From a virus, in the IMG/VR virus record IMGVR_UViG_3300020020_000061, positions 1 through 46,425 of that record: DNA of 46,425 bases. One strand, written 5' to 3'. Positions 3,274-12,141 of this stretch are shown here, piece by piece; the stretch's first letter is position 1, and each line of letters opens with the position of its first letter. The notes below the pieces were generated by a model. It saw only the letters and a list, made by a program, of their open reading frames with translations. It ran no database searches and was not told the origin of the DNA. The position numbers and the translations under genes are program-made.

Positions 3274-5199
3274 TTATTGCCTGATATTCACAGGGAGTTG
3301 TGTTGAAAGCGTTGCATTTAAGCCGAAAGCAATTAACTCCATTCTGTTGTCAGTTCCAAAGACTGAAAATGAAATTGAAGATTCAAAAAAATCAGTATTA
3401 TTAAAAGATTTTTCCACTCTGAACTTCGGTGGCAAATTTTGAATAGAAGGCAAACTGCCACCACCGCCTAATTTTTGTTTACCCAAAGGCACTTTCCCAA
3501 AAGAACCCAAATTTCCAGAAACACCAGACAAACATACAATTTGCGAATCATTGCCGTCAATGGTAAAAGTCTTTTCACTAGCACAACCATCCAATTCATA
3601 AGTTATCTTGACAGTCGCTATTGTATTGCTATTTATGTATCCTTCAATATATAGATAATTTGCCGATTTATATTGTGTTCTTGTGCCATAATTCTGATAA
3701 GAAAATACCCAACTAGCTTGAATCGGTGAACCAACGAATCCTGTATAAACTCTGTCGGCATATCCTGTGAATAATTTATAACTCTCCGAACTGTTATATG
3801 AATGTCCGTAAAGTTCTCCATTTACGATATAGAATCTTGAAACAGGAATGGTCTGAGGCGGTTCCCAATTACCTGTCTGAATATTGAAGATTAAAACCAA
3901 TCCTTCTTTTGGAATAGCAACATAAATAAAATATCTGTGATAGAAAATAGAACCATCGGTAAAATCGTAACTGTCCATGTCTAATTTAATCGCATCTGAA
4001 ATGTTCTGTGTTTGAATTTGCGTTAAGAAATTTTCAACCACTCCCATTAAATCAACCGTTGCTTCGTTGGTAACTGTAATCGTATTGTTCTTCATACTGG
4101 AAACGTATGCTTGTGAGATTGCTCCTTGTCGTTTGCCTGTCTTTATCGGTAACGCTCCTAATGTTTGTCCTGATGCACCTGCGGCAGATATAAAATCAGT
4201 AAAAGTAATCTTATACCATAAATCTTTCCCAGCCGAAATATACATAGTTGGTGCGTCAACTGCACCCTGAACAGTGAAAGCAACTAAATTCTGGTCAAGT
4301 ATTAAACTTCCACCTTCTCCTGTTTGTCGTGGCGTACTAGCGGTTACATCTTTGTAATTATTCACTTTAGACAACCACATTACAGACGAAGTGAGAGAAC
4401 CAATAAAGATTTGATTGTTCAACACTGAAATTAAGCCATTGGCAAAAGTGGCAGTGATGCCTGTAATCGCACTGTTCGCTGTAGTTCTAACTGATTGATG
4501 GACAATAGCTCCCACAGGTTCGGCTGAAGGGTCAGGAGTAACACCTGTTAAAGTTGTTGTCGTGTCTCCTCCCGTATAAGTATAAGTAGTGCCGTTAATT
4601 ACTACACTCCTTGTACCAGTTTGATAGAATCCTGTATCTGCCCAAGTATCTCCTGCTTTCGTTAAAGTATTCGCAGTCGAAGACAATAATTCCGTGTATG
4701 CTCCATTCCATTCAAAGACATTAGAAGTTCCATTCACAAACAAACAAACTCTTAAACTTTCGGTGGTGTCCCAAAAAGTAGTGAAATTGTAAGCGACTGT
4801 CGTGAGAGAAGTTAATAAGTCTCGCCAAGTTACTACGCCTAATGGACTAACATACCGATATTGAAGTTTCCCATCATTGGCTGCACTTGTTAAAAATCCT
4901 GCTCTTAAATGTCGTTCACCATTTGCTCTTGTTATCCAATCAAACGAAGCCAAAATAGCAGCATTAACGGCACTCGTAACTCCGTCCAAAGCGTATCCTT
5001 GTCGTATCTGCACCCTTTCCGATACATTGGTAAGAACATTCTGACTGCCCACGATTAAAACTCCAGGCGGTAAATTAGTAACATCTTCACGATTGCGATA
5101 ACCAAATTTGTAACTAGAAACAATAGAAAAATCACCTCCTCCTTGAGATTTTTTAGTTAACTTCTTCGTAAGACTTGGTTGAGTTGTTTCTTCTGGCAT
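3274..5199 (-). CDS. Tail hub/nozzle-like protein, 641 aa
   Basis: The N-terminal phrase REDVTNLPPGVLIVGSQNVLTNVSERVQIRQGY is typical of large podovirus-type tail proteins that begin with a 'results from this pedigree of sequences' style beta-propeller region. The rest is Thr/Ser/Asn/Gly-rich beta sequence without catalytic motifs. It follows the 401-aa neck protein with two small genes between, which is the usual order neck then nozzle. Start overlap with the stop of the 42-aa gene (TAATG) supports the ATG at 5199. The role as tail tube or nozzle is inferred from order, length and style; it could also be a large structural hub of another tail type. Confidence 0.65.
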   Translation of the reverse strand: MPEETTQPSLTKKLTKKSQGGGDFSIVSSYKFGYRNREDVTNLPPGVLIVGSQNVLTNVSERVQIRQGYALDGVTSAVNAAILASFDWITRANGERHLRAGFLTSAANDGKLQYRYVSPLGVVTWRDLLTSLTTVAYNFTTFWDTTESLRVCLFVNGTSNVFEWNGAYTELLSSTANTLTKAGDTWADTGFYQTGTRSVVINGTTYTYTGGDTTTTLTGVTPDPSAEPVGAIVHQSVRTTANSAITGITATFANGLISVLNNQIFIGSLTSSVMWLSKVNNYKDVTASTPRQTGEGGSLILDQNLVAFTVQGAVDAPTMYISAGKDLWYKITFTDFISAAGASGQTLGALPIKTGKRQGAISQAYVSSMKNNTITVTNEATVDLMGVVENFLTQIQTQNISDAIKLDMDSYDFTDGSIFYHRYFIYVAIPKEGLVLIFNIQTGNWEPPQTIPVSRFYIVNGELYGHSYNSSESYKLFTGYADRVYTGFVGSPIQASWVFSYQNYGTRTQYKSANYLYIEGYINSNTIATVKITYELDGCASEKTFTIDGNDSQIVCLSGVSGNLGSFGKVPLGKQKLGGGGSLPSIQNLPPKFRVEKSFNNTDFFESSISFSVFGTDNRMELIAFGLNATLSTQLPVNIRQ

Positions 5200-7075: not shown

Positions 7076-7585
7076 TTAAGTAGCATTCAAGTAAGCAAAT
7101 TCTCCAAATAATTCTTTAGCTTTTAAATTATAGGCTTCGGCTGCCTCCTTTTCAGTTAGAAACCTTCCCACATTTATTCGCTTCCCATTATATTGAATTA
7201 TTGCTTGCCACTTTGCTTTTCTCTTGATGTCGTTGATACTTCGAACTCCCTTATACTTAGATTTGGTTGGTAATCCTTTATAGGAACGAGGTTTGCGGCG
7301 ATTTTGAGCATTTTGAGTTACGCTACAAATCCTCAAATTTCCTTTTCGGTTGTCCAATCCATTTCCATTTTCATGGTCAATATGTATATTTTTATCTGTT
7401 ACCCGTAGGACTTCTCTATGTAATCGGAATGTTTCCTTTTTTCCATTCACTCGTTCACTCCTTTTTACATAAACTGTCCTCGCTCTAACATCAACACATG
7501 CTTGCCATTTATAAGGAACTAATCTCTCGTAATCTTCGTCATCAATTATCGCATCGTATCCTTGTGTAAGTTTTATTGTTTTCAT
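7076..7585 (-). CDS. HNH homing-type endonuclease with AP2 DNA-binding domain, 169 aa
   Basis: The N-terminal half has the HNH core (LHREVLRV...IHIDHENGNGLDNRKGNLRIC), including the paired His and the Asn-rich ending. The C-terminal half (SKYKGVRS...WQAIIQYNGKRINVGRF...AAEAYN) is an AP2/ERF-type DNA-binding domain. HNH-AP2 proteins are a known class of mobile endonucleases in phages. The gene stands between two complete structural genes, so it is freestanding, although its flanks look like pieces of a group I intron. It probably cuts phage DNA at intronless or HEG-free sites to spread itself. Confidence 0.88.
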   Translation of the reverse strand: MKTIKLTQGYDAIIDDEDYERLVPYKWQACVDVRARTVYVKRSERVNGKKETFRLHREVLRVTDKNIHIDHENGNGLDNRKGNLRICSVTQNAQNRRKPRSYKGLPTKSKYKGVRSINDIKRKAKWQAIIQYNGKRINVGRFLTEKEAAEAYNLKAKELFGEFAYLNAT

Positions 7586-8807: not shown

Positions 8808-9443
8808 TTAAACTCCCGCAGCACCGTAACTTCCCGCATAATCAGAACAGAAATAATTCTCACGGAAGTTTGCTTGATAGAAATATGTCAAATTGTTTGA
8901 ATATCTCCAATCAACCAATGCTGTTTCAATTCCTTGTCTGATTAAACGTGTGAATCCATGTCTTTTAGCCAGCAAGAACCAAGCTGTATCGCTTCCTCCT
9001 GCGACTGTACCCAACCAATGCGAAGTCCATACCGTAATACCAAGTGCAGAACGATAAACGTTCACATTGTTATTAGCACTATCAGCAATCAACGCTGAAT
9101 CGGTAATCTCACGAGCGTGTTTCCATAAAGCTGGCGGAACTAACAACACCGCTGCCGAACTTCCTGAAATAACTCCCGCTTGATTCTTTTGTTCCATCAG
9201 ATTAACAAGAGCTGTATTGAGTGAAGTTGGCGACAATGCTGAACCTGCACCTGTGGCAACATTTGATTGCGTACCACCTCCAATTAAAGGATGAGATGCA
9301 GAAAAGATTGCTACTCCGTCGGCAGTCAATGCAGTCGTAAATCCATTCCTAAACAAACCGAAAGCTGTGAAGTCTTGCGTGTTCTTTGCTTGTTCTGCGA
9401 AGTCTTTGACATCGGCAGCCCAAACTCCATGCCTTTTTGTTAT
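8808..9443 (-). CDS. Major capsid protein, exon 2 (C-terminal 211 aa)
   Basis: The capsid frame is open from just after an in-frame TAA near 9456 down to the stop at 8808. It reads ITKRHGVWAADVKDFAEQAK, then FGLFRNGFTTALTADGVAIFSASHPLIGG and later VWTSHWLG and TRLIRQGIETAL, the signature of HK97-like major capsid proteins that begin with a bundled helix before the P-domain. The exon boundary is set at the predicted intron 3' guanosine (9444); the exact base is inferred. Joined to exon 1 in frame it gives a 318-aa protein, a normal length for this family. Without splicing, translation from exon 1 would stop inside the intron. Confidence 0.85.
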   Translation of the reverse strand: MTKRHGVWAADVKDFAEQAKNTQDFTAFGLFRNGFTTALTADGVAIFSASHPLIGGGTQSNVATGAGSALSPTSLNTALVNLMEQKNQAGVISGSSAAVLLVPPALWKHAREITDSALIADSANNNVNVYRSALGITVWTSHWLGTVAGGSDTAWFLLAKRHGFTRLIRQGIETALVDWRYSNNLTYFYQANFRENYFCSDYAGSYGAAGV

Positions 9444-10174
9444 CGTAGTAGCTCTTTATCCACTACATCATTGACTCTAAATATAATTCTGCCTTTTTAA
9501 CAAATTCTATGTCCTCTATTACTTGTAGTGAGAGATTGCATTCTCTGCAAAGTAATCCTCGTATCTTTCCTGTTTGATGGTTATGGTCTACGCAAGGTTT
9601 TATTTTGCCAAACTCGCAATCACATATTGGACATTTATTGTTTTGTTTAGTAAGTATTGTATTCCAATCCTCTCGTGTAAGAGAGTATTTTCTATTAAGA
9701 CGAAGGTCTGAACGATATTGAGCAACTTTGTGCTTTATCTTTTGGTAGTGTTCTTTAGCTTTCGTTTTCCTACCATCCAAATCTTGAGAATACCAGAGAT
9801 TATTTTTTACTCTGCATTCTCTACAAGTCTTGTTTCTCTTACCCCTAAAGGTATTGAAATCATTAGCTTGTTTGTCTTTCTTACAATATATACATTTTAT
9901 GATAATCATATTGTTATCATAGCATACTTATATTTATTTATCAATGTTCAGACTATATCTTCACTATTGGTTTTTGACTGTTTGATTTTTGTCCAGTGTC
10001 GGGATTTCGTGGAGTGATTATATTCTATTTCTAGTTTCACACTCTAGTCGTTCGCCCTTGTAAATCTTTTAACTTTTACCTTGGGTCGGGATTGTCCATT
10101 GTTGGAGTTCCCCCGAATTAACCCGATTTATACAACACACATGGCTACGCTAACTGAAGCGTAGAACCCCAATA
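9444..10174 (-). ncRNA. Group I self-splicing intron in the major capsid gene
   Basis: The minus strand holds the group I core in the right order. P/Q region: TCGGGGGAACTCC then GGACAATCCCGACCCAAG (10079-10119), close in style to phage T4 td. R: GAACGACTAGAGTG (10040-10053). S: GAAGATATAGTCTGAAC (9946-9962). P7 pairs GACTA with TAGTC. P6a pairs GTAAA with TTTAC, and P8 pairs GAGTG with CACTC. Hairpin CTACGC/GCGTAG (10145-10164) could be P2, and GTAGT/ACTAC forms a terminal P9-type stem. The 5' site after CCT at 10175 and the 3' G at 9444 are my best frame-consistent choices and may be off by some bases. The endonuclease frame lies in the P9 region. Confidence 0.88.
9463..9909 (-). CDS. Intron-encoded endonuclease VII-like HNH protein, 148 aa
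   Basis: Two Cys pairs in the N-terminus (CIYCKKDK, CRECR) and two more around the catalytic site (CPICDCEFG and CRECN) bind zinc. The catalytic segment is CVDHNHQTGKIRGLLC, the signature of the recombination endonuclease VII family (His-Me/HNH fold). The frame lies wholly inside the intron, downstream of the core and ending just before the 3' splice site, which is the usual place for a homing endonuclease. It should cut intronless capsid genes and drive copying of the intron. Confidence 0.88.
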   Translation of the reverse strand: MIIIKCIYCKKDKQANDFNTFRGKRNKTCRECRVKNNLWYSQDLDGRKTKAKEHYQKIKHKVAQYRSDLRLNRKYSLTREDWNTILTKQNNKCPICDCEFGKIKPCVDHNHQTGKIRGLLCRECNLSLQVIEDIEFVKKAELYLESMM

Positions 10175-10495
10175 AGGGGAGTTTATGTTGTCGTCAAATA
10201 ATTGCTTGCTAATATTGATGCCTTGCGCAAACGTTAAGATTGCAGTTGTTTGTTTGTTTCGAACTGAAGGAGTGGAAAGCGGAACAGCAACTGTCTCTCC
10301 GATTGCAGGGAATAAACCTGACCCTTTGTTAATAGACTGAATCCAAGCAGCATGGGTCGTATCTTGCGGCTTGAAGATATCCGAGGTCGTAGCATGCGCT
10401 ACTCCAGGGAATGTCTCATCATAGTCAAACTGTTGGAAAAACACTTTGTCCAATTCAGTTTGGACTATGGAAAAATTCTGGGCTTCAGTAAACAT
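10175..10495 (-). CDS. Major capsid protein, exon 1 (N-terminal 107 aa)
   Basis: The ATG at 10495 opens MFTEAQNFSIVQTELDKVFFQQFDY and continues through a region ending LFDDNINSP, after which the frame runs nine codons into intron sequence and stops at 10145. The N-terminal half of an HK97-fold capsid protein is present and the C-terminal half is missing, which is what revealed the split. The start is preceded by TTGACT and TAGAAT with the latter only 7 nt from the ATG and no SD. It follows the decoration-like gene, as is common. Confidence 0.85.
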
Positions 10496-11622: not shown

Positions 11623-12141
11623 TTATAGCACATTCTTATTTTTTAACACAAGTTTGGTTTTGATATTAAATGCTTTCATATTTCCATAATCATAAAGGCG
11701 ATGGCACGAGACACATAAACTCATCCAATCATTTAACTCCATTTTATATTTTCCACTCTTATTTGCCCAGTGATACATTCTATCCTCATCATCCAAACCA
11801 CAATTTTCACAATGATTAGCACTCCCAAGTTGAGCAATAATACGATGATGCTTTCCCGTATAACCTATTTTATCACCTTTCCACCACGGACTATTTATTC
11901 CTTCACCCCATTGAGTAGCTAACGCTTTTCTTTGATTCTCGTTTATAGTTTTTCCTTTTTGAATCTCGCTAATTTTCTTTTTAGTTTCTTCTGTATGTTT
12001 ATGTCCTCGCAATGATTCCGCACGCCTCCTATATATTTCCTGTGCCTTTTCTTTATCTTTATGCCATGCTGTCTCTTTTGCTATTCTTTCTTTAGAATGT
12101 TTTTTTCCTAAATTATATGTATGTCCTTTTGTAAATGGCAT
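11623..12141 (-). CDS. NUMOD3/HNH homing-type endonuclease, 172 aa
   Basis: The N-terminus holds NUMOD3-type DNA-binding motifs (GKKHSKERIAKETAW, HTEETKKKISEIQKGK), each common in GIY-YIG and HNH homing enzymes. The C-terminal half has CENCGLDDEDRMYHWANKSG...LCVSCHRLYDYG, a zinc-bound HNH nuclease. It is inserted between the 115-aa gene and the scaffold gene and begins two bases after the former ends. Function: site-specific cutting that mobilises its own gene; no flanking intron core was seen. Confidence 0.87.
   Translation of the reverse strand: MPFTKGHTYNLGKKHSKERIAKETAWHKDKEKAQEIYRRRAESLRGHKHTEETKKKISEIQKGKTINENQRKALATQWGEGINSPWWKGDKIGYTGKHHRIIAQLGSANHCENCGLDDEDRMYHWANKSGKYKMELNDWMSLCVSCHRLYDYGNMKAFNIKTKLVLKNKNVL
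11632..11640 (-). promoter_or_regulatory. Extended -10 promoter for the capsid genes
   Basis: The minus strand reads TGTGCTATAAT, containing TGCTATAAT, at the very end of the NUMOD3-HNH gene and about 75 bp upstream of the scaffold start. It would let scaffold, decoration and capsid be transcribed independently of the inserted endonuclease gene. Confidence 0.5.

Follow-up and report, generated by a model that had tools for sequence, protein, structure and literature searches.

Intron or broken gene: the split capsid gene

Does a phage whose major capsid gene is split by a ribozyme and a nuclease gene still encode an intact capsid protein, and how did the gene come to be split? The question arises from a 46,425-nt stretch of viral DNA (positions 1 to 46,425 of IMG/VR record IMGVR_UViG_3300020020_000061; hereafter, the window). 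A preliminary description had placed at 9444–10174 a group I intron with an endonuclease VII-type open reading frame, separating two pieces of the capsid gene. This arrangement is borne out by matches to the group I model (RF00028) and to the Endonuclease VII domain (PF02945). The place was correct, but the ends were not, as the intron spans 9433–10184 (752 nt) and extends some 10 nt further on either side. The capsid gene and the intron both lie on the minus strand, which corrects the earlier account. We consider it very likely that the locus is explained as a whole by a mobile group I intron of the IA kind in capsid codon 104, with a predicted spliced 311-aa capsid and a putative homing nuclease.

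Exon 1 (10185–10495, minus strand) comprises 311 nt, namely 103 codons and 2 nt, with its ATG at 10495, and is homologous to residues 1–103 of the intronless L001–L006. Exon 2 (8808–9432, minus strand) comprises 625 nt, stop codon included. The intron follows exon nucleotide U10185 and its last base is omega-G9433. Joined, the exons make a single reading frame of 311 aa; the in-frame product predicted earlier is upheld, though not its length of 318 aa. Exon 2 alone matches PF10124 (4.6e-11), and the spliced protein matches both PF10124 (Mu-like gpT, 4.8e-14) and PF25209 (phage capsid, 5.3e-12). Annotated major capsid proteins of isolate and metagenomic phages align to most of the spliced protein, and by these profile matches and this homology it belongs with the Mu gpT-like major capsid proteins. 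The AlphaFold model of an intronless homologue was of low confidence (pLDDT 46) and no use was made of it. Because the unspliced exon 1 (open reading frame 10495–10145) reaches a stop codon after 13 intron codons, it is a sound inference that capsid production would depend entirely on splicing.

The predicted spliced junction reads ...GACAACAT|GCATGG... on the minus strand. Six intronless homologues from other viral contigs, with 69–89% nucleotide identity to the joined exons, carry no insertion and lack the intervening residues. Their empty site, GA(C/T)AA(C/T)AT|GCA(C/T)GG, is the predicted spliced sequence of the window, with zero residues gained or missing at the junction in any of the six.

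The intervening RNA has a conserved group I core

In a search of a 1-kb stretch (9300–10300), RF00028 matched positions 9930–10189 with 50.1 bits (E 1.5e-11), barely above the gathering score of 50. A second RF00028 search was likewise above the cut-off, and a fast Rfam scan of the whole window at gathering thresholds returned no group I match. Since this score alone was borderline, further support was sought. The P, Q, R and S elements of the preliminary description are indeed present. The internal guide sequence CCAUGU|GUGUUGU (10132–10144, minus strand) accounts for both splice-site pairings: GUGUUGU forms P1 with ACAACAU at the end of exon 1 (10191–10185), closing with the terminal U·G, and CCAUGU forms P10 with GCAUGG at the start of exon 2 (9432–9427), gapless next to P1. 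The 13 contiguous pairs put this junction first of the 108 in-frame U...G choices (the runner-up has 12), and 61 of 20,000 shuffled introns did as well. The group I hallmarks, a U·G pair at the 5′ splice site within P1, a terminal omega-G and a P10, are thus all found.

The ribozyme core (9949–10126, minus strand) contains helices P3 (10126–10122/10003–9999), P4 (10116–10112/10090–10086), P5 (10106–10103/10098–10095), P6 (10085–10084/10056–10055), P7 (10049–10045/9955–9951), P7.1 (10044–10040/10016–10012) and P8 (9998–9995/9965–9962). Related ribozymes were collected by conserved-element and capsid searches, and seven cores were aligned (the window, L030, L013, L052, L053, L055 and L032). Across P3–P7 and P7.1 in these seven, 98.9% of the helix cells pair, and 10 of 26 core pairs exhibit two-sided change. 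None of 500 shuffles reached these values of pairing and covariation, and sliding the helix partners abolished them. An independent minimum-free-energy fold of the window recovered P1, P3, P4, P5, P6 and P7.1; its energy alone is modestly better than that of shuffles (z −1.79). P7.1 covaries in the seven cores and a P7.2 hairpin appears in the fold. The P7.1/P7.2 insertion between P7 and P3 marks the intron as IA-type. When isolate phages were searched with the ribozyme by blastn, just short matches to conserved elements came up. On these sequence grounds, the intervening piece is confirmed as a group I intron.

The intron encodes an endonuclease VII-type protein

The nuclease gene (9463–9909, minus strand) encodes 148 aa and lies 3′ of the core. 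Its assignment to the endonuclease VII type, as first described, is sustained by the Endonuclease VII domain (PF02945, 6.4e-17; phrog_2914, 1.6e-25). Endonuclease VII-type proteins may alternatively be resolvases or restriction enzymes. When its active site is aligned with that of T4 endonuclease VII, the protein retains the DHxH...R...CxxCN residues as well as the zinc cysteines. The equivalents of D40, H41, H43, R54 and N62 are present, so that the motif is intact and the protein is of the DHHRN/endonuclease VII type, the DHHRN homing-endonuclease motif being that defined by Fang et al. (PMC6083498). Over the part shared with the nuclease of L030, dN is 0.13 and synonymous sites are saturated, which argues that the nuclease protein is under constraint and kept functional.

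Two hairpins frame this gene. The first, AUGAUAA/UUAUCAU (9899–9920, minus strand; read directly from the sequence), has the start codon of the endonuclease within its loop and is kept with altered arms in L030 and L013. Masked nuclease start codons are known from T4 introns. The second (9444–9467, minus strand), with the loop AUAAAGAG, lies just 5′ of the 3′ splice site and overlaps the endonuclease stop codon. This loop is identical in the five complete introns at the main site (the window, L013, L052, L053 and L055), the stems of which differ yet are fully paired.

Might the ribozyme have decayed so that it no longer splices, leaving a broken capsid gene or a defective genome? The Rfam score just at the cut-off would fit such a degenerate intron, but P1, P3–P8 and P10 have each been preserved, with compensatory changes, the two exons remain open and strongly conserved (97% to L001), and the nuclease gene is intact and constrained. 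Moreover, failure of a capsid gene intron to splice would be fatal to the phage. We deem degeneration very improbable, and a functional intron the far better account.

Elsewhere in the window, two apparently free-standing nuclease genes of the HNH/NUMOD3 type flank the capsid module (7076–7585 and 11623–12141). At the contig ends, 73–2028 and 45710–46425 are ~84% identical to each other and both represent the 3′ portion of a single large gene. The one on the right is cut off by the contig end, and the assembly may therefore have broken at the duplicated gene.

Introns recur in the capsid gene of related phages

An exon 1 search yielded 24 other contigs with this capsid. The capsid frame is uninterrupted in 18 of these and intron-bearing in 6, a patchy distribution that is to be read as a census of metagenomic contigs drawn from a single collection and a single pattern-based search, with near-duplicates among them (L041–L043, L048–L049). 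The rarity of capsid introns asserted at the outset agrees with the literature (PMC11878797, PMC12350094), but not with this clade, in which they are common.

The introns of five of the six contigs lie at most 8 nt from the window's site: L030 and L053 at the exact site, L013/L050 and L052 5 nt upstream, and L055 8 nt upstream. Counted from the Phe100 codon, the related ribozymes are inserted at three adjacent points, after nucleotides 6, 9 and 14. In L013, L052 and intron 2 of L055, contiguous P1 and P10 helices match the local exon sequences completely. L053 has a full P1 and one mismatch in P10; L030 has the P1 pairing, its contig ending before the 3′ exon.

Further arrangements were observed. 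L055 (3001–4961) has two group I-like introns in its capsid gene, each with its own endonuclease VII-type nuclease. The extra intron is about nine codons upstream (after codon 93), with an apparent 25-nt mini-exon between the two (4164–4188); the L055 capsid gene thus probably has a 25-nt exon flanked by introns. No clear P1 was seen at the 5′ splice site of the first intron, a site placed solely from the protein alignment, and neither L055 intron was matched by cmscan (E 0.01). In L051 (2103–3001) a distinct group I intron follows capsid codon 7 (MFTEAQN), upstream of the matched part; at 78 bits it has the highest Rfam score of all, and an HNH-like nuclease lies 5′ of its core. L032 (13200–13841), located by its Q-element pattern, carries a closely related ribozyme and an endonuclease VII-like frame behind a scaffold-like gene, in a phage of another type. 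Its exon 1 reads LIQTTTNQYLAPEWVDQVLR; the nuclease there is a fragment and L032 was used purely as a ribozyme sequence. When one genome per bacterial species was searched with the capsid profile, neither host nor prophage was found.

The intronless relatives also bear on an insertion of another kind, in which a free-standing nuclease gene would divide the capsid into two proteins, each translated on its own. Free-standing HNH-type genes do occur elsewhere in the module (the two at 7076–7585 and 11623–12141). Nevertheless, exon 2 is without a start codon near its beginning (the first listed is a TTG at 9356), both the guide pairing and a ribozyme core are found, and the homologues have one uninterrupted frame, making this explanation exceedingly unlikely. 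An assembly chimera of two phages, conceivable for a metagenomic contig, is every bit as implausible, considering that the independent contigs L030 and L053, from other metagenomes, share the identical site and the same P1 pairing, and that the intronless L001 matches the exon halves on both sides.

Ribozyme and nuclease appear to differ in history

Within the group I intron, the parts differ in their nearest relatives. The nearest capsid to that of the window is the intronless L001, at 97% identity. The ribozyme core is closest to that of L053 (84%), a phage with only 49% amino acid identity in capsid exon 1. The nuclease is closest to that of L030 (79% over 84 aa) and only 37% identical to that of L053. 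Ribozyme and nuclease therefore seem to have separate origins, and transfer between phages is probable for both. By these comparisons, the introns appear to be modular, horizontally mobile elements. We further propose, tentatively and at slightly less than an even chance, that the capsid gene of this clade is a recurrent target of modular group I introns, whose guides were refitted as the site shifted by 3–8 nt. Such a shift under one nuclease family is suggested because related ribozymes occupy neighboring positions with refitted guides. If true, the clade would offer a natural series of group I intron site change in an essential, highly expressed gene.

Discussion

The following sequence of events is compatible with the structures described. 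The intron RNA would adopt the group I ribozyme fold, with the guide sequence forming P1 with the last bases of exon 1 and P10 with the first bases of exon 2. Two transesterifications would then ligate the exons in vivo, for a normal 311-aa capsid protein. During co-infection, the endonuclease VII-type nuclease would cut the conserved FDDNMHGVW-coding stretch of intronless capsid genes, and repair templated by the intron-bearing copy would spread the element by homing. The carrier would be protected, as the inserted intron removes the target. The start-codon hairpin, by masking the start, probably limits translation of the nuclease from the capsid message, which is late and abundant.

Precedents exist for several of these features. 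The portions of the LittleE paper drawn on here (PMC3706429) report a major capsid intron in this mycobacteriophage, the in vivo splicing of which was proven experimentally by RT-PCR and N-terminal protein sequencing, and cite a capsid-gene intron in the lactococcal phage Tuc2009. As in the window, the major capsid gene harbors a likely group I intron (~820 bp) with a nuclease gene, the last base of exon 1 being U and that of the intron G. In contrast, LittleE has a LAGLIDADG-like nuclease encoded on the opposite strand, the phage group is different, and recurrent multi-site insertion is not described for LittleE in those portions. The DHHRN homing endonucleases, among them F-CphI (S-PM2) and those encoded by introns of the phages Berlin, YpP-G and LUZ24, have the same catalytic motif as the window nuclease, and several members are likewise embedded in phage group I introns (PMC6083498). 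The known intron-encoded members, however, are in DNA polymerase or other genes, and F-CphI is free-standing and adjoins psbA (PMC6083498). The IA-type introns of T4, Twort and the Bastillevirinae share the group I core, with the nuclease frame placed in a peripheral loop; the Bastillevirinae also show decoupling of ribozyme and nuclease types, and phiNIT1 has a small exon between neighboring introns (PMC11878797), as L055 apparently does. They differ in that their introns are mostly in genes of nucleotide and DNA metabolism (PMC11878797).

Group I introns in capsid genes and intron-encoded endonuclease VII-type nucleases are therefore both already known. What is less ordinary, as read from these contigs, is a clade in which a single structural gene has been invaded repeatedly and in several positions. 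Recent surveys raise the question of why the group I introns of phages are nearly confined to genes of nucleotide and DNA metabolism (PMC11878797, PMC12350094). About one quarter of the sampled contigs here carry introns in the structural gene that is normally expressed most strongly, which makes this clade a direct counter-example to the metabolism-gene bias. Its intron sites are several and its nucleases exchangeable, and its intron-plus and intron-minus pairs allow tests of cost, splicing efficiency and homing.
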